Below, piece after piece: positions 2,085 to 60,030 of a DNA stretch of 64,000 nucleotides; position 1 is the first letter of the stretch; every line of letters begins with the position of its first letter. The stretch comes from Clostridiales bacterium (GTDB lineage: Bacteria > Bacillota > Clostridia > Christensenellales > Aristaeellaceae), in assembly GCA_015056145.1 (NCBI GenBank), contig SVGY01000007.1:1-64000 (forward strand). The letters run 5' to 3'. The notes under the pieces were generated by a model. It made no database searches. It was not told the DNA's origin and saw only the letters and a list, made by a program, of their open reading frames with translations. Made by a program: the position numbers and the translations under genes.

Positions 2085-3362
2085 ATGAATCGAAATGCAA
2101 TCAGCCTTTTTTCATCGTCTGGCATTGGTGATTTAGGGCTTCATGCAAACGGTATAAATACCGTTATCGCTTGTGAGCTTTTGAGCGAACGCATGAATCT
2201 TTTTAGTCATAATAATTCGAACACAAAGTGTTTCTGCGGTGATATTTGGGCTTTGAAGGATGAAATCGTCGAATACTACAATAATCAATTCGATGAGCCA
2301 CCGTTCCTTATTTTGGCAACGCCCCCCTGTCAGGGGATGTCTTCAAATGGAATGGGCAAAATGTTGAGCGATTACCGAAAAGGTTTGCGTCCGAAAATGG
2401 ATGAACGAAACCGCTTAATAATGCCTGCTGTTGATATCGTGATTGAATTGCGTCCGGAATGGGTAATCTTTGAGAATGTTGCCAACATGGAAAATACCAT
2501 GATTCTGGATGACGAAGGAAAACTTGTCAAAATTCTTGATTATGTACACGGCAAAGTCGAACATGAGTATATCATGTGTCATGAGGTTATTGACTGTGTT
2601 GATTACGGAGTTCCCCAGCATCGGCGTCGTTTACTAACAATTCTTACGCGAACAGAAGCAGGTAAGAGATATTACAACCAACATAAAACACTCTTGCCGC
2701 TGGCATCACACAGCAAAGAAATGTCTTTGTTCACAGAAGAATGGGTGACTGTTCGCAAAGCAATTGGTCAGTTTCCACCATTGAGGGCAGAAAAGGGCAA
2801 GAATGCATGCAAAGCATTTCATCCGCTGCATAGGGTTCCTTTGCTGGATGATAAGAAACTATTCTGGATGGATAACACACCCGAAGGTGCTACAGCATTT
2901 AATAATCAGTGTATCAACCCTTCTTGCATGTATCAAGGGAACAGCAATCATGGTGCCCGCCATAACAAGGACGGAATCAATCAATCCCTGACTGACACCC
3001 CTTTGTATTGTCAAAAATGCGGTGCACTTCTTCCTCGTCCCTATGTCGAAGACAAGGATGGCACTCGGCGTTTGATGAAGGGTTTTGTTAGTGCATATAA
3101 GCGCATGTGTTGGGATGAACCTGCAAGCACGCTTACACAAAATTTCCAATATGCTTGTTCTGACAACAAAGTACATCCGGATCAAAGCCGTGTTCTTTCT
3201 CTTTATGAAGCGCTTGTTCTGCAAACAATTGCGCAATATGAGTACTCGTTTGTTGTCGACGGAAAAACGGTTTCTGACGGTCTTATCAGAGATACTATCG
3301 GAGAAAGCGTTCCCCCTCTTGTAATTGATAAGGTTGTAAAAAACATACTCTCAATTCAATAA
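2085..3362 (+). CDS. DNA (cytosine-5-)-methyltransferase of a type II R-M system
   Basis: The protein (425 aa) transfers a methyl group from S-adenosylmethionine to cytosine and would protect host DNA from the neighbouring nuclease. Motif I is ISLFSSSGIGDLGLHANG. The catalytic Cys82 lies in ATPPCQGMSS, the ENV motif in FENVANM, and motif VIII in PQHRRRLL. The target-recognition region contains C-x4-C (CINPSC) and C-x2-C (CQKC) about 60 residues apart, which looks like an inserted zinc ribbon. GGAGG lies upstream of the ATG at 2085; an earlier in-frame ATG at 2061 is poorly placed. It converges on the restriction gene. The target sequence cannot be read from this. Confidence 0.92.
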   Translation: MNRNAISLFSSSGIGDLGLHANGINTVIACELLSERMNLFSHNNSNTKCFCGDIWALKDEIVEYYNNQFDEPPFLILATPPCQGMSSNGMGKMLSDYRKGLRPKMDERNRLIMPAVDIVIELRPEWVIFENVANMENTMILDDEGKLVKILDYVHGKVEHEYIMCHEVIDCVDYGVPQHRRRLLTILTRTEAGKRYYNQHKTLLPLASHSKEMSLFTEEWVTVRKAIGQFPPLRAEKGKNACKAFHPLHRVPLLDDKKLFWMDNTPEGATAFNNQCINPSCMYQGNSNHGARHNKDGINQSLTDTPLYCQKCGALLPRPYVEDKDGTRRLMKGFVSAYKRMCWDEPASTLTQNFQYACSDNKVHPDQSRVLSLYEALVLQTIAQYEYSFVVDGKTVSDGLIRDTIGESVPPLVIDKVVKNILSIQ

Positions 3363-3406: not shown

Positions 3407-4183
3407 TTATCGACGGATTCTTCCAATCCATTTTGCTCGGCTAAATGCAGTTAGATATGCGTCGTCATCAATAACCGCAATCCAGCCCTTACACATTTTT
3501 GTTACGCCACCTGTATTCATGATCGAAACGCTAGTGGTTCGTCCTCCACCATCTTTAGGTTGCACAATCTTGCCCCAGTCATCCTCGGTCAGATCATTAC
3601 GATAGAAGCATGCCGCAATCGCAGGGACTTCATTAATGAAATCCCAGAAAACCGCAAGAAGATTATTCGTTTCTCTATGGTGTGCTTTCCAATCGAACGA
3701 ATTCATGAGAAAAATGCGTTGTTCACCGATCAACGGCTTGGCGCGGACGCTTGCTGATGGTGTGCTTCCACATGTTGCCTTTACCTCGATACCGCCATAA
3801 CGATAGGGGCTGAATAACGCTTTATCACGCGGATAGCGTTTCCCGTCCCGATCTTCGTAGAGCGTACGGAAATAACGCAGGCGTTCAGGGGTATCAATTG
3901 CCAACAAATCAGGATAACCATCCTGATGCAGATTTGAGGTCAAATTCCCATCAGAAAAACGCATAATACTTTTTGCAAAGTATTCGCCAACAATACCGCT
4001 TAGGTTGCGCATTCCAAGGGCTTCAAAAATGTTTATGTCAAACTCCTGTGTCTGTTCATGTAGTGCATAAAGTGCATTGTTGCAGAAATTGATTGCCTCA
4101 ACAACAGCTTCGTTCGTTATCATGATACGCCCGTCATAAACGACATGATTATGAGGGTTGACAAGATAATCAAATTCATTCAT
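3407..4183 (-). CDS. Type II restriction endonuclease, PD-(D/E)XK fold
   Basis: The protein (258 aa) is the likely partner nuclease of the convergent methyltransferase. A PD-(D/E)XK signature is visible: Pro91-Asp92 in GYPDLLAID and Glu133-Val-Lys135 in GGIEVKATCG. The spacing is typical of restriction enzymes. The ATG at 4183 is preceded by GAGGAGG and overlaps the end of the upstream HTH gene, so C protein and nuclease are translationally coupled. I do not recognise the specificity family. Function is inferred from the motif plus the C-protein/methyltransferase context. Confidence 0.8.
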   Translation of the reverse strand: MNEFDYLVNPHNHVVYDGRIMITNEAVVEAINFCNNALYALHEQTQEFDINIFEALGMRNLSGIVGEYFAKSIMRFSDGNLTSNLHQDGYPDLLAIDTPERLRYFRTLYEDRDGKRYPRDKALFSPYRYGGIEVKATCGSTPSASVRAKPLIGEQRIFLMNSFDWKAHHRETNNLLAVFWDFINEVPAIAACFYRNDLTEDDWGKIVQPKDGGGRTTSVSIMNTGGVTKMCKGWIAVIDDDAYLTAFSRAKWIGRIRR

Positions 4184-6441: not shown

Positions 6442-8757
6442 ATGATCACTTCCATCAAAAAAAGGGATGGCCGCGTAACTCCCTTCGATCAGGCAAAAAT
6501 CGAACAGGCTATTTCTCACTGCTTCATGGCCACAGGCAGCCAGAAGAGCGAAGAAACAGCACACGAGCTAGCCAACATCGTGGTGGCTCAGCTGGAGAAC
6601 AACGAATCCATCCCTTCCGTACCTACCGTTGAGCAGGTACAGGATGTGGTGGAGAAAGTGCTCATTGAGCGGGGCTTTGTCCGCTCTGCAAAGGCCTATA
6701 TTCTGTACCGTGCGGAGCGCAGCCGTGTGCGCGAAATGAGCACCCGGCTCATGAAAACCTTCGAGGATATTGCCTCCAAGGATGCCATCGACAGCGATAT
6801 CAAGCGTGAAAACGCCAACATCAATGGCGATACCGCCATGGGCGCTATGCTGAAGTTCGGCAGCGAAGGCTCCAAGCAGTACTATGAAATGAACGTGTTG
6901 GATCCCCGTTTTTCCCAGGCTCACCGGGAAGGCGAGATCCACATTCACGATCTGGACTTCTACACCCTTACCACCACCTGCTGCCAGATCGACCTGCTGG
7001 ATCTGTTCAAAAACGGTTTTTCCACCGGACACGGCGTCCTCAGAGAGCCTAACGATATTTACAGCTACTCCGCCCTGGCCTGCATTGCCATTCAGGCCAA
7101 CCAGAACGACCAGCACGGCGGCCAGAGCATTGTAAACTTTGATTACGGCATGGCTCCCGGCGTAAAGAAGACCTACCGCAAGCGCTTCCGTGACAACCTG
7201 TCCCGGGCGCTGGAACTGCTGGCTGGCCTTGAAGATGCCCAGGCACAGGCCCAGCGGATCACCGAGGAAATGGGCGAGGATGTAACTCTCGGAGCCACTC
7301 CTGAAGCGGATCGCCGCCTGATGGCGCTGGTGGGCGAACTGATGCCCCGCAGCCCCGAAAGCGAACTGACCCGTATTGTGGATTTTGTCCGTGAGCATGC
7401 TGAGAAGGAAACCGAAAAGGCCACCTATCAGGCCATGGAAGCCCTGATCCACAACCTGAATACCATGAACAGCCGTGCCGGCGCACAGGTGCCCTTCTCC
7501 TCCATCAACTATGGCATGGATACCTCTCCCGAGGGCCGCATGGTCATGCGCAATGTGCTGCTTGCAACGGAAGCCGGTCTGGGCAACGGCGAAACGCCCA
7601 TTTTCCCCATCCAGATCTTCCGCGTGAAGGAAGGCGTCAGCTTTAACCCCGGCGATCCCAACTACGACCTGTACCGTCTGGCCATCCGCACCAGTGCCAA
7701 GCGTCTGTTCCCCAACTTCAGCTTCATCGATGCTCCCTTCAACAAGAAATATTATGTGGAAGGCCGTCCTGAAACCGAAATCGCCTACATGGGCTGCCGT
7801 ACCCGTGTTATCGGCAACGTGCACGATCCGGAACGGGAAATCTGCCCCCGCCGTGGTAACCTCAGCTTCACTTCCATCAACCTGCCCCGTATTGCCATCA
7901 AGGCAAAGGGTGATATCGGCTGGTTCTTTGAGGAGCTGGAACGCCTGCTGAACCTGGTGCACGACCAGCTGCTGGAACGCCTGGAGATTATCTCCAACAA
8001 GAAGGTTTACAACTTCCCCTTCCTGATGGGCGAAGGCGTGTGGATCGATTCTGAAAAGCTGAACTGGAACGACACCGTGCGGGAAGTGCTCAAGCACGGC
8101 ACCCTGTCCATCGGTTTCATCGGCCTGGCAGAGGCATTGGTGGCTTTGCGTGGCGAGCACCACGGCAAGGATCCCAACAGCCAGAATCTCGGCCTTGAAA
8201 TCGTTGGCTTTATCCGTAAATACTGCGATGACTGCAGCCAGCGTGAAAAGCTGAACTTCACCTGCCTGGGCACCCCTGCCGAAGGCCTCAGTGGCCGCTT
8301 TGTTCGCATTGACCGTGAAAAGTACGGCAGCATCCCCGGTGTTACCGACCGGGAATACTACACCAACTCTTTCCATGTACCGGTGTACTATCCCATCAGC
8401 GCTTTTGAAAAGATTGCCCTGGAGGCCCCCTATCATGCGCTGACCAATGCCGGTCACATCAGCTACATCGAAATGGATGGCGATCCCAGCAAGAATCTGG
8501 ACGCCTTTGAAAAGGTCGTTCGCTACATGCACGATCAGGGCATCGGCTACGGCTCCATCAACCACCCCGTTGACCGTGACCCGCTGTGCGGCTACAACGG
8601 CATCATCGGCGATACCTGCCCCAAGTGCGGCCGCACCGAGGAAGGACATGCCTTTGAACGCATCCGCCGCATCACTGGATACCTGGTGGGCAATCTCGAT
8701 CGCTTCAACAATGCAAAGCGTGCCGAGGAATCCCAGCGTGTGAAGCACGGCATCTGA
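6442..8757 (+). CDS. nrdD: Anaerobic ribonucleoside-triphosphate reductase (class III)
   Basis: The protein (771 aa) makes deoxyribonucleotides from ribonucleoside triphosphates without oxygen, using a glycyl radical. An N-terminal ATP-cone (residues ~2-95, starting TSIKKRDGRVTPFDQAKIEQ) is the allosteric domain. The C-terminus has the Cys-rich zinc site (DPLCGYNGIIGDTCPKCGRT) and the glycyl-radical loop RITGYLVG, with the radical Gly near residue 746. AAAAGGAG precedes the ATG. The activating enzyme gene nrdG is not next to it, which is unusual; it must lie elsewhere. The paired NrdR-like boxes suggest repression when dNTPs are plentiful. Confidence 0.97.
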   Translation: MITSIKKRDGRVTPFDQAKIEQAISHCFMATGSQKSEETAHELANIVVAQLENNESIPSVPTVEQVQDVVEKVLIERGFVRSAKAYILYRAERSRVREMSTRLMKTFEDIASKDAIDSDIKRENANINGDTAMGAMLKFGSEGSKQYYEMNVLDPRFSQAHREGEIHIHDLDFYTLTTTCCQIDLLDLFKNGFSTGHGVLREPNDIYSYSALACIAIQANQNDQHGGQSIVNFDYGMAPGVKKTYRKRFRDNLSRALELLAGLEDAQAQAQRITEEMGEDVTLGATPEADRRLMALVGELMPRSPESELTRIVDFVREHAEKETEKATYQAMEALIHNLNTMNSRAGAQVPFSSINYGMDTSPEGRMVMRNVLLATEAGLGNGETPIFPIQIFRVKEGVSFNPGDPNYDLYRLAIRTSAKRLFPNFSFIDAPFNKKYYVEGRPETEIAYMGCRTRVIGNVHDPEREICPRRGNLSFTSINLPRIAIKAKGDIGWFFEELERLLNLVHDQLLERLEIISNKKVYNFPFLMGEGVWIDSEKLNWNDTVREVLKHGTLSIGFIGLAEALVALRGEHHGKDPNSQNLGLEIVGFIRKYCDDCSQREKLNFTCLGTPAEGLSGRFVRIDREKYGSIPGVTDREYYTNSFHVPVYYPISAFEKIALEAPYHALTNAGHISYIEMDGDPSKNLDAFEKVVRYMHDQGIGYGSINHPVDRDPLCGYNGIIGDTCPKCGRTEEGHAFERIRRITGYLVGNLDRFNNAKRAEESQRVKHGI

Positions 8758-8834: not shown

Positions 8835-10091
8835 ATGGGAAGAAAACCGGGCCGGTGGAAACGGCTGACGGGCTGGATTATCAGCCTGATGATGGTGGGC
8901 AGCTTCTACACGCCCCAGGCGGAGGCGCTGAGGCAGCTGCCACAACAGATGGTAATAGCGGCAGGCCAGGAAGCTGCGCTGGAACTGCCCTTTCCGCTGA
9001 CGGCCCGCAGGACGGAACCTGACAGGACTGCGGCATCGGATATAGGGGAGAAACTGTCCGGAACCGGCGGGGAGGAGACAACCCTTACCGTAAGCCTTTT
9101 TGGTCTGCTGCCCCTGAAAAAGGTAAACGTGGATATACGGGAGGATCTCCGTCTTTATCCGGGCGGCATGGCGGTTGGTGTGGCACTAAAGACGCAGGGC
9201 GTGCTTGTGGTAGGCACCAGCGATCTGACAAATGCTTACAGTCCGGCCCGTTTGGCAGGGGTGAAGGCAGGAGATATCATCACCGAAGTGAACGGCAAAC
9301 CGGTGACCAGCACCGGAGAATTGACGGAACTGGTATCCAGGCAGGGCAGCAAGGCACTGCTCCTTACTGTTCAGCGGGGCCAGAATCAGTTGCAGCTGAC
9401 GCTGGAACCACAGAAGGACGGGGCCACCGGTTCCTACCGAATCGGCGCATGGGTACGGGATTCCACCGCTGGCGTGGGCACCATGTCCTTTTACGGGGAG
9501 GTGGAGGAAGGCCAGGGGATCCGTTACGGGGCGCTGGGCCATGCCATCACAGATGCAGACACCCAGCAGGTGCTGACGGTATCCGACGGAGAGGTCATGA
9601 AGGCGGAAGTGGTGGACGTGCGCAAGGGGCAGGCAGGTTTGCCCGGCGAACTGAAGGGCAGCTTTTTGCAGGAGCACGCCGTAATGGGCAACATCCGGCT
9701 GAACAACCAATACGGCATCTACGGCGTCCTGCAGGATGTGCCGGAACATCCCCTGTACCCGGAAGGCCTGCCCATTGGCAGGAAGGACGCCGTTCACACC
9801 GGAAAAGCCACCATTCTGTGTACCGTGGATACCTCCGGCATGAAGGAATACGAAATCGAGATCGTGGAAGTGGCAAGGCAGAGCGAACCGGCCCAGCGCA
9901 GCATGATCCTCCGGGTGACGGACGAAAGGCTGCTGCAAAAAACCGGCGGCATCGTTCAGGGCATGAGCGGCAGCCCAATTTTGCAGGATGGCAGGATCAT
10001 CGGGGCGGTGACGCATGTGTTCGTAAATGACCCCACCATGGGCTACGGCTTGTTCGTTGAATGGATGATCGGGGAGAGCGGGAAAATATGA
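8835..10091 (+). CDS. spoIVB: SpoIVB sporulation signalling serine protease
   Basis: The protein (418 aa) is secreted from the forespore into the intermembrane space, where it activates pro-sigma-K processing. An N-terminal membrane/signal segment spans residues ~10-32. A PDZ domain follows (~105-185, with LAGVKAGDIITEVNGKPVTS), then the S55 peptidase domain. The triad is visible: His236 in GALGHAITD, Asp363 in RVTDE and Ser378 in GMSGSPI. These numbers match those I recall for Bacillus subtilis SpoIVB. The only visible ribosome binding site (AAAGAGG) lies in the right arm of the nrdD terminator. The 164-bp repeat element sits just downstream. Confidence 0.95.
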   Translation: MGRKPGRWKRLTGWIISLMMVGSFYTPQAEALRQLPQQMVIAAGQEAALELPFPLTARRTEPDRTAASDIGEKLSGTGGEETTLTVSLFGLLPLKKVNVDIREDLRLYPGGMAVGVALKTQGVLVVGTSDLTNAYSPARLAGVKAGDIITEVNGKPVTSTGELTELVSRQGSKALLLTVQRGQNQLQLTLEPQKDGATGSYRIGAWVRDSTAGVGTMSFYGEVEEGQGIRYGALGHAITDADTQQVLTVSDGEVMKAEVVDVRKGQAGLPGELKGSFLQEHAVMGNIRLNNQYGIYGVLQDVPEHPLYPEGLPIGRKDAVHTGKATILCTVDTSGMKEYEIEIVEVARQSEPAQRSMILRVTDERLLQKTGGIVQGMSGSPILQDGRIIGAVTHVFVNDPTMGYGLFVEWMIGESGKI

Positions 10092-10093
10092 AC

Positions 10094-10111
10094 GGAGGCC
10101 GAAAGGCCTCT
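10094..10111 (+). terminator. First copy of the duplicated spoIVB terminator hairpin
   Basis: GGAGGCCGAAAGGCCTCT: a 6-bp stem with a GAAA loop, three bases after the stop codon. The same 18 bases recur at 10276-10293, where they carry the T-run. Confidence 0.7.
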
Positions 10112-10275
10112 CTGGCTGTCAAAAAATGCGCAGGGTGCAGGGGGATCATCCCCCTGCCGGGTGTGGGCAGAGCCCACATTCCTTGTGCCGCAGCACTTTC
10201 AAGAAAGCACAGCGAGCACCGAAGGTGCAAGATTTGCGGCTTTGACTGACAAGAATGAGTTTTTTCGACAAGCTG
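10112..10275 (+). mobile_element. 164-bp interspersed repeat element, copy 1 (MITE-like, RNA-structured)
   Basis: The element starts CTGGCTGTCAAAAAA and ends TTTTTTCGACAAGCTG, which gives imperfect terminal inverted repeats. The second copy (59831-59994, opposite orientation) differs at 2 of 164 positions. Both copies are flanked by a perfect duplication of the local terminator hairpin. Internal palindromes are a 21-base perfect one at 10137-10157, TGTGGGCAGAGCCCACA at 10162-10178 and GCACCGAAGGTGC. GCCGCA and TGCGGC can close a larger stem. Short frames inside are not convincing genes. I infer a non-autonomous mobile or structured-RNA element. Confidence 0.75.
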
Positions 10276-10299
10276 GGAGGCCGAAAGGCCTCTTTTTTG
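10276..10299 (+). terminator. Second copy of the spoIVB terminator hairpin with T-run
   Basis: Same 18-base hairpin sequence as 10094-10111, here followed by TTTTTT. This is likely the original terminator tail, separated from the first hairpin by the inserted element. Confidence 0.8.
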
Positions 10300-10433
10300 T
10301 GTGCAGAATGTGATATGATGAACTAAATTACGTTTCGTCTTTAGAAAAAATATGTTAGAATGGATTTTGTCATTATAATAAATTCTGATGAAGAAACCAT
10401 GTTCCTAATGCAAGAAATGTATGAGGAGGAGAA

Positions 10434-11072
10434 ATGATGAAACGATTTGCCATATTAGTTTTTGTGCTAGCGTTATTGTTCGTTGAAAATATTTGCGCAG
10501 AAGAGATTGATTATGGTTTTTATTTGCCGGACGGATACAGCATTAAAAAAAGCCCCAAGATTGATTATGCATCATTAACAGATGATCCGGATGCTTTGCT
10601 GGTGATGGAAACGGTTCATGATTGGTATTTAAAGGATACATGGCGAAAAAAACATTTTGACAGACAAGAACTAGTTCTGTTTGTATCACCCTATATATTT
10701 CAAAAAACTGAGAGCGAGAATAGCAAAGAAATTTTTTGCGTTTGTACAATAGATGAATATGGCTTGGTGCAAGATAGCAATGGAAACGAATACTTTATTT
10801 CTGGATATAGTAGATTTTATGCCTTTGATTTGTTGTATGTGCGTAACGAGAACAATTGGGAAATAGAAAGAATACGGCTACCTGAAAGTCAAGAAGAACT
10901 TTTGCAAGGCTTCGGTGTTGGAACTCAAGGCGTTAATGGCGTATCAGATGGAATGATTTTCACTTTGTCCGAAGCGAATTACAATGACTATATAAAGGAA
11001 AATATTGTGCGTTATTTAAATGAAAACGGATTGATGGATGTATCAATTGTTGAGTTTGATTACTTCGAATAA
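10434..11072 (+). CDS. Secreted protein of unknown function
   Basis: The protein (212 aa) starts with a signal peptide (MMKRFAILVFVLALLFVENI, cleavage near CAEE). GAGGAGAA precedes the start. The mature part is acidic and aromatic-rich, with no motif I recognise. Base composition is much more AT-rich than the neighbours, suggesting transfer. It lies next to Rhs-repeat remnants, so an extracytoplasmic immunity or accessory role is possible but unproven. Confidence 0.6.
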   Translation: MMKRFAILVFVLALLFVENICAEEIDYGFYLPDGYSIKKSPKIDYASLTDDPDALLVMETVHDWYLKDTWRKKHFDRQELVLFVSPYIFQKTESENSKEIFCVCTIDEYGLVQDSNGNEYFISGYSRFYAFDLLYVRNENNWEIERIRLPESQEELLQGFGVGTQGVNGVSDGMIFTLSEANYNDYIKENIVRYLNENGLMDVSIVEFDYFE

Positions 11073-59799: not shown

Positions 59800-59830
59800 A
59801 CCGCTGCATGGCGCAAAACCATGCAGCGGT
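59800..59830. terminator. First copy of a duplicated 31-base terminator hairpin
   Basis: The arms ACCGCTGCATGG and CCATGCAGCGGT form a perfect 12-bp stem. The identical 31 bases recur at 59995-60025. Lies between convergent genes. Confidence 0.75.
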
Positions 59831-59994
59831 CAGCTTGTCGAAAAACCTCATTCTTGTCAGTCAAAGCCGCAAATCTTGCACCTTTGGTGCTCGCTGTGCT
59901 TTCTTGAAAGTGCTGCGGCACAAGGAATGTGGGCTCTGCCCACACCCGGCAGGGGGATGATCCCCCTGCACCCTGCGCATTTTTTGACAGCCAG
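59831..59994 (-). mobile_element. 164-bp interspersed repeat element, copy 2
   Basis: Reverse-complement copy of 10112-10275 with only two mismatches. It is bounded on both sides by the same 31-base hairpin. In copy 1 the flanking duplication is a different 18-base hairpin, so only the 164 bases are shared between sites. Confidence 0.75.
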
Positions 59995-60030
59995 ACCGCT
60001 GCATGGCGCAAAACCATGCAGCGGTTTTTC
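59995..60030. terminator. Second copy of the duplicated terminator hairpin
   Basis: The 31-base hairpin again, followed by TTTTC. On the minus strand it terminates the DUF3048 gene. Confidence 0.75.

Follow-up and report, generated by a model that had tools for sequence, protein, structure and literature searches.

A 164-bp MITE between duplicated terminator hairpins in a Clostridiales genome and its probable link to IS1182-clade transposases

The spoIVB terminator and the two element copies of the window

The window (the whole stretch of 64,000 nucleotides analysed here) carries two copies of a 164-bp element, the first of them inserted at the terminator of the gene coding for the SpoIVB peptidase (Table 1). 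The 18-bp hairpin sequence GGAGGCCGAAAGGCCTCT precedes this copy and is repeated exactly behind it; the T-run follows the second occurrence only, and the first is followed by CTGGCTGTC. This agrees with the initial annotation, as does the recurrence of the 164 bases, given there with two differences and found here at 98.78% identity (2 of 164 positions differing). Copy 2 also lies between perfect hairpin duplications, 31 bp long, which were absent from that annotation. Read from the outside inwards, the element ends in CTGGCTGTC-AAAAAA and CAGCTTGTCGAAAAAC. The terminal inverted repeats, described earlier as imperfect, are real, and copies from sister species display better ones (e.g., CAGACTGTCGACAAA, CAGATTGTCGACAAAG and CAGACTGCTGAAAAAA).

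Table 1. Coordinates of the features at the two element copies of the window
Feature	Position	Strand	Evidence or remark
SpoIVB peptidase gene, whose terminator was the target of the insertion	8835..10091	+	TIGR02860, 438.9 bits (cut-off 305); open reading frame
Left hairpin copy (target duplication, 18 bp)	10094..10111	+	without T-run
164-bp MITE, copy 1	10112..10275	+	
Left terminal inverted repeat of copy 1	10112..10126	+	CTGGCTGTCAAAAAA; compare CAGGCTGTCAAAAAA at other copies
Right terminal inverted repeat of copy 1	10261..10275	-	CAGCTTGTCGAAAAA, read outside-in
Right hairpin copy of the duplicated terminator	10276..10293	+	
T-run of the original terminator	10294..10298	+	now adjoins the right hairpin copy only
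Hairpin duplication, one side of copy 2	59800..59830	.	31 bp
164-bp MITE, copy 2	59831..59994	-	
Hairpin duplication, other side of copy 2	59995..60025	.	31 bp

No empty counterpart was found for the two sites of the window; the 15 spoIVB loci from sister species were without the element, and their downstream regions were not syntenic. A single hairpin followed spoIVB at some of these loci (e.g., L147 and L149), with different downstream genes that make the comparison a weak one. The comparison covered only the downstream stretch printed for each locus, and the match ended before the end of the gene at L151, L152 and L156.

Copies, target hairpins and empty sites in the genome and its relatives

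The assembly from which the window comes (2.77 Mb in 31 contigs, 94% complete) contained many further copies. At least 48 matches were obtained in a first search, in which 40 of 75 candidates were scored, and searches with end patterns added more. A BLAST census returned 74 hits, one of them a spurious match of 21 bp, which leaves about 73 copies; 59 of the 74 hits were at least 97% identical to copy 1. Among the 73 copies, four were array copies with identical 25-base flanks, which were merged, and ten had truncated or diverged ends, so that 59 distinct two-ended copies, with ends set at the inverted repeats, entered the flank analysis. A locus-specific, hairpin-forming direct repeat abutted both ends in 52 of these 59 copies (18 to 39 bp, mean 27 bp, at most 10% mismatches). 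The dyad axis of the hairpin coincided with the exact centre of the repeat in 45 of the 52 copies and was half a base off in two more. It thus lay within one base of the centre in 47 of 52 copies, compared with 4% of 2000 random segments from the same loci, the five remaining copies (L031, the third copy of L035, L037, L041 and L078) being counted as misses although a hairpin is visible there by eye and was misplaced by the axis routine.

These elements are short and non-coding, with terminal inverted repeats of about 15 bp, dispersed copies and a target duplication, as expected of MITEs, and they form a real MITE family that looks recently active. The initial annotation had proposed a small mobile element, non-autonomous and with the terminator stem-loop as its target duplication, and had named many copies with locus-specific duplicated hairpins as the support to look for; the number of copies with inverted-repeat ends and the abutting hairpin repeats bear out all three points in this genome.

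T-rich stretches were found to the right of the right repeat in 30 of the 52 copies and A-rich stretches to the left of the left repeat in 29 (both in 14, neither in 7), which indicates that most targets are intrinsic terminators, entered in either orientation without bias. Where the duplication was exactly centred (45 sites), its edges corresponded to the step from an A-tract to a GC-rich stem. Adenine accounted for 56 to 78% in the two bases outside the edge and G+C for 80 to 82% at the fourth and fifth base inside, while the A/T run inside the edge measured 0 to 3 nt on each side in 44 of the 45 sites. Complementarity extended at least 2 nt past the duplication in 32 of the 52 sites (one of the 32 having a misplaced axis), and the outer end of the palindrome therefore does not by itself define the cut.

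Seven of the 59 two-ended copies were without a scoreable repeat. Three of them (L036, L041 and L042) harbored the same hairpin twice by eye, the two occurrences differing by a small indel or by additional mismatches; one kept a partial repeat (L089), one had lost it (L083), and two formed the recombinant array L090. Arrays of the form hairpin-element-hairpin-element were observed at L032, L033, L035, L041, L043, L084 and L086.

The two-copy array L090 (C8:178290-178643) contains three different hairpins, the middle one being that of the distant L041 array on the same contig (C8:155926-156468), a pattern suggestive of either recombined MITE copies or a faulty assembly close to the end of the contig. 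In the four-copy array L086 (C22:81021-81738), the T-run that follows the hairpin is part of some inter-element repeats, and this array therefore probably grew by unequal exchange rather than by repeated insertion. A truncated copy (L080, C2:15920-16018) lost its right part between a short repeat of the element and the flanking hairpin, and is likely a deletion scar. Solo right ends in this genome were considered as belonging to a longer autonomous element and rejected, as they proved to be truncated or diverged copies. An end-like site at C8:86948 was an old copy, 83% identical.

Of 300 family genomes, 54 had matches to the element at an E-value of 0.001 or better; the genus accounts for 13 of the 54 (own genome included), and the listed matches outside the genus covered mainly the interior hairpin core. 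A hairpin was duplicated around an element of 160 to 166 bp (271 bp in one case) in 18 of 30 fetched loci (seven sister species), and in 17 of these 18 the axis was at most one base off centre. Ten of the 30 loci, all of them partial matches, had no repeat, and two gave chance repeats. The one long copy (L238) exceeded the usual distance between hairpin repeats by about 107 bp. Such a MITE was also carried by one viral contig; exact empty-site patterns of this MITE and of an insertion sequence (IS) on a viral contig each gave 0 hits in viral contigs. A scan of named genomes with the core returned a single MAG, Clostridiales bacterium SIG359, own genome possibly lying outside the scan.

Two sister-species genomes, G126 and G191, displayed 93% identity over 3.2 kb around one common insertion (L234 and L227). 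When G191 was searched with the flanks of five filled G126 loci, three were found and two (L220 and L248) gave no match; at all three, the element was absent and one hairpin was in place. The first empty site has one GGCCCGGCCCCTACAAGGGGCGGGGCC, and G126 has the element between two similar hairpins (L249/L250, flanks 96% and 76% identical). The second has one GGGAGAGCCCGCAGGCCCTCCC (L241/L251, flanks 94% and 85% identical), and the third one CGCCCCTGGCGAAAGCCAGGGGC, which equals the hairpin that is doubled in G126 (L247/L252, left flank 93% identical), the genomes differing beside the hairpin on the right. As the letters of the hairpin differ between the two genomes at the first two sites, the empty sites are orthologous rather than identical. 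Empty sites with one hairpin, which the initial annotation had also predicted, were thus present both here and among IS1182 relatives on plasmids, described below.

A common fold of the element interior, obtained from 22 aligned elements, encompassed 38 pairs, with 99.5% of cells paired and compensatory changes at 12 pairs. Double-change cells amounted to 80, compared with 24.8 in shuffles and 0 to 17 in slid controls. Two measures spoke against the fold: its number of pairs with double changes was reached by 73 of 500 shuffles, and its further pair types (24) were fewer than those of shuffles (28). RNA of the whole site, including both hairpins, folded better than its shuffles (z -5.6). The interior fold is conserved, and our guess is that it acts as a transcribed 3'-end structure or as a feature of mobility.

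An Rfam search over positions 9500-11000 (E up to 1) gave no match except RF02937, Clostridiales-2 RNA, which was rejected with 24.2 bits against a gathering threshold of 58.6. The core GGGTGCAGGGGGATCATCCCCCTGCC...GGGCAGAGCCC, or variants of it, was also encountered in other genera of the family (L056-L072, e.g., L070 at 1501-1540), where neither MITE ends nor flanking repeats could be recognised. The interior of the MITE may derive from an older repeat family or have a function in common with it.

Ends and target duplications of IS1182 elements

Members of the IS1182 family have long direct repeats, and ISfinder lists such repeats for members; the family was examined here because of these repeats. 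The transposase model NF033551 of NCBIfam (curated cut-off 270 bits) matched 7 of 17 genomes of the genus (3 over the cut-off) and 145 of 300 genomes of the family, with full-length transposases over the cut-off at L109 (467 bits), L117 (427), L122 (410) and L176 (478). The own assembly gave 0 hits with this model, and no autonomous partner was found in it; such a partner is therefore assumed to have been lost, left unassembled or supplied from outside.

Repeats around IS1182 genes were sought without using the element ends. Hairpin repeats of 20 to 40 bp were present at 8 of 31 loci, and others were obtained at 8 loci in viral contigs (26 of 37 loci examined) and, on plasmids, at 7 of 8 and then 1 of 2 loci. 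Overall, 24 of 67 IS1182 loci displayed a hairpin duplication, and in all 24, which had been selected for having a repeat and not for its centring, the repeat was perfect and the dyad exactly central. These 24 elements came from MAGs of the family, viral contigs and plasmids of Bacillus, Alkalihalophilus, Lactococcus, Enterococcus, Rhizobium, Klebsiella and Staphylococcus. The other 43 loci yielded no perfect hairpin repeat abutting the element.

A weight matrix built from MITE ends only (15 of them) was applied to 8 IS1182 elements; of their 16 ends, 15 ranked in the best four positions and the remaining one 11th, with 7388 to 8646 positions per locus. Fourteen of these 16 end positions had been set by the repeats alone; for L121 (right end) and L122 (left end, one-base position), where the edge of the repeat is blurred, the end sequence was used. 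The terminal inverted repeats and the target pattern of the MITE both match those of the IS1182 family, and in the sister species G208 a hairpin-duplicating IS1182 element occurs beside such MITEs. An IS from the same genus (L094, 2603 bp, ends CAGACTGTCAAAGAAG) lies between 40-bp hairpin repeats.

Within positions 1369-4053 of L094, a second end-like sequence was noticed at 2901 and another adjoins the outer hairpin at 4053, perhaps as nested insertions. Loci marked by the matrix with a hairpin on one side only or with two different hairpins (L110, L111, L114, L115, L118-L120 and L123) were read as contig ends, recombination or MAG chimerism and counted as misses, as was L167, where a perfect 19-bp palindrome surrounds a longer, double unit.

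In a tree of 64 transposases (midpoint root, with a long-branch warning), all 23 rows that had both a hairpin repeat and a usable reading frame fell inside one clade of 39 rows (98/97 support), and the 25 rows outside this clade had no abutting repeat. Sixteen rows of the clade were negative, partly owing to contig ends or unlike hairpins on the two sides, and the repeat label is consequently not a clean one (11 changes on the tree). Outside the clade, L134 harbors a 44-bp hairpin twice (609-652 and 3139-3182), 2530 bp apart, with half a hairpin (1317-1330) at the left edge of the IS. This pattern goes beyond the simple picture and perhaps reflects a different handling of the target, nearer to that of IS1272.

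Plasmids of Bacillus provided filled and empty sites for two of these IS, with the hairpin present once when the site was empty and exactly twice when it was filled. The B. pumilus plasmid pBP-T2 carries its IS in AAGGTCCTAAGTATTTCTTTAGGACCTT, a hairpin that occurs once in pBP-33-3 (flanks identical at 300 and 297 of 300 positions) and once in pBP-MRL1, there with one more T in the T-run. The lengths of pBP-T2 (8008 bp) and pBP-33-3 (6432 bp) differ by 1576, that is 1548 + 28. In the B. subtilis 2RL2-3 plasmid, the IS is inserted in ACAGCAATTAAATTGCTGT, a sequence found once in five other plasmids; of the seven plasmids with the 2RL2-3 flank, five are empty and two carry the IS. The target palindrome in pBP-T2 (L201, 2110-2180) runs about 16 bp past each edge of the 28-bp duplication, so that the relevant part of any cruciform involved would be its GC-rich core alone. 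For three IS on viral contigs, the left flanks had no usable relative in the phage collection.

Origin of the hairpin duplication and comparison with known systems

At the level of sequence, the copies, their locus-specific and dyad-centred hairpin duplications with characteristic edges, the IS1182-like ends and duplications, and the empty sites with one hairpin are established. From these we infer that the element is very probably a MITE moved in trans, now or formerly, by a DDE transposase from a clade of the IS1182 family. DDE transposons are commonly described as producing a short target duplication of a length typical of the family. A length of 18 to 40 bp with the dyad at the centre, in the MITE copies and the IS copies alike (45 of 52 and 24 of 24), points instead to recognition of DNA shape.

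Other origins have to be weighed against this one. Another transposase with similar ends could move the element, the likeness to IS1182 being one of appearance only; the own assembly is without an IS1182 gene and the similarity of the ends spans only about 15 bp, yet IS1182 ends come out at the top among thousands of positions, IS1182 elements share the same, unusual target behaviour and G208 has such an IS beside such MITEs, all of which renders this reading unlikely. Insertion beside a hairpin in the manner of group IIC introns, with the hairpin duplicated later by replication slippage or template switching, would suit the tandem arrays in which some copies stand (L084 and L086), and hairpins do provoke slippage. 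We regard it as very unlikely, since the duplication is already complete and exact in plasmid pairs whose flanks are identical at 297 to 300 of 300 positions and its edges are symmetric about the dyad.

Arrays of hairpins and elements such as L041 and L035 resemble arrays of spacers and repeats, as would be expected if a Cas1-type integrase inserted a unit and duplicated the hairpin as its repeat. Such CRISPR-like integration is nevertheless highly improbable for one constant insert with terminal inverted repeats that occupies many unrelated hairpins and whose ends are common to DDE transposons. The strongly folded interior with its compensatory changes and the weak match to an Rfam sRNA family would accord with reverse transcription of a structured RNA at hairpins carrying a nick, the target duplications varying as they do in target-primed reverse transcription; set against the exact ends, the same terminal inverted repeats as in DNA transposons and the IS1182 transposases encoded by IS relatives with the same target pattern, an RNA-mediated insertion is hardly credible.

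If an IS1182-clade transposase acts in trans, it would recognise the hairpin as a structure, either a cruciform or its four-way junction, and the two 3' ends of the element would be joined to the 5' feet of the hairpin, one on each strand. A four-way junction would bring both transfer sites together at any hairpin length, and the single-stranded hairpin left on either side would be filled in, yielding two hairpin copies. With transfer to opposite strands at the hairpin feet, the duplication length would follow the hairpin rather than a fixed stagger, from which a duplication that is variable yet dyad-centred is hard to obtain. Each side would retain the hairpin and each outer side its A-run or T-run, so that a complete terminator would persist in each direction that had one. 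With the terminator regenerated, insertions probably do very little harm, and the high copy number probably follows from this, which suggests a route to abundance for a mobile element that leaves terminators standing.

A wider reading seems to us evenly balanced between true and false: that a large subgroup of IS1182, from clostridia to rhizobia, selects its targets by their secondary structure in DNA and makes symmetric cuts at the base of a cruciform, the duplication length being set by the target hairpin and not by the enzyme, that MITEs thereby live in regenerated terminators, and that the interior fold is functional and not a leftover. The IS on Bacillus plasmids, with both empty and filled sites, offer ready material for the question whether cruciforms are the real target in the cell.

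Group IIC introns insert at terminator hairpins by an RNA-based route and, to our knowledge, make no hairpin duplication. An origin as such an intron was rejected, given that 164 bp leave no room for a reverse transcriptase gene and that intron features are lacking. YPAL repeats of Yersinia, reportedly described by De Gregorio in 2006, are said to lie near stop codons with target duplications that overlap terminators, and would resemble the MITE in these respects. A model length of 168 is listed for YPAL (PMC2267715). MITEs of Methanosarcina acetivorans with the IS1182 member ISMac2 as partner, of 160 and 169 bp and in 14 and 7 copies, are alike in partner and size; their direct repeats are 4 and 0 bp, if the last columns of the table stand for inverted and then direct repeats, and the part of that paper available to us describes no hairpin duplication (PMC3852290).

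Hairpin targeting itself has precedents. Palindrome targeting by some IS1182 members is attributed to Siguier et al. 2015 in two papers on IS1272 (PMC4923244, PMC5678879). According to these papers, IS1272 and TnSha1 of staphylococci have an IS1182-family DDE transposase and target hairpins or terminators by structure, without sequence specificity, and IS1272 deletes or replaces the hairpin with no target duplication (PMC4923244, PMC5678879). Hairpin targeting is therefore common to IS1272 and the MITE, but the MITE duplicates the hairpin that IS1272 deletes; at the MITE sites, the hairpin was retained and doubled rather than replaced. Duplication of the whole stem-loop was drawn by Wan et al., 2017, as a hypothetical IS1272 pathway only (Fig 13 b; PMC5678879), and the present elements supply natural examples of it. 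A literature search, with most subscription journals outside its scope, returned no paper recognisable as a description of hairpin-duplicating IS1182 elements or of such MITEs.

The closest likeness is to IS1182 insertion sequences, including ISBspe1 as named in RefSeq, which have the ends, the type of target and the hairpin duplication of the MITE; an ISBspe1-type IS on Alkalihalophilus pBpOF4-01 duplicates a 20-bp palindrome and has the ends CAGGCTGTTGAGAAAG. Compared with them, the MITE is non-coding, short and far more numerous in its genome, at about 73 copies of 164 bp. The initial annotation knew of no standard family with such behaviour. This view gives way in so far as the ends and behaviour are those of the IS1182 clade and hairpin targeting is published, and it stands in that the hairpin is duplicated and not deleted as by IS1272 (PMC4923244, PMC5678879). 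What is surprising is not the targeting of hairpins itself but their exact, dyad-centred duplication across an IS1182 clade and its MITEs.
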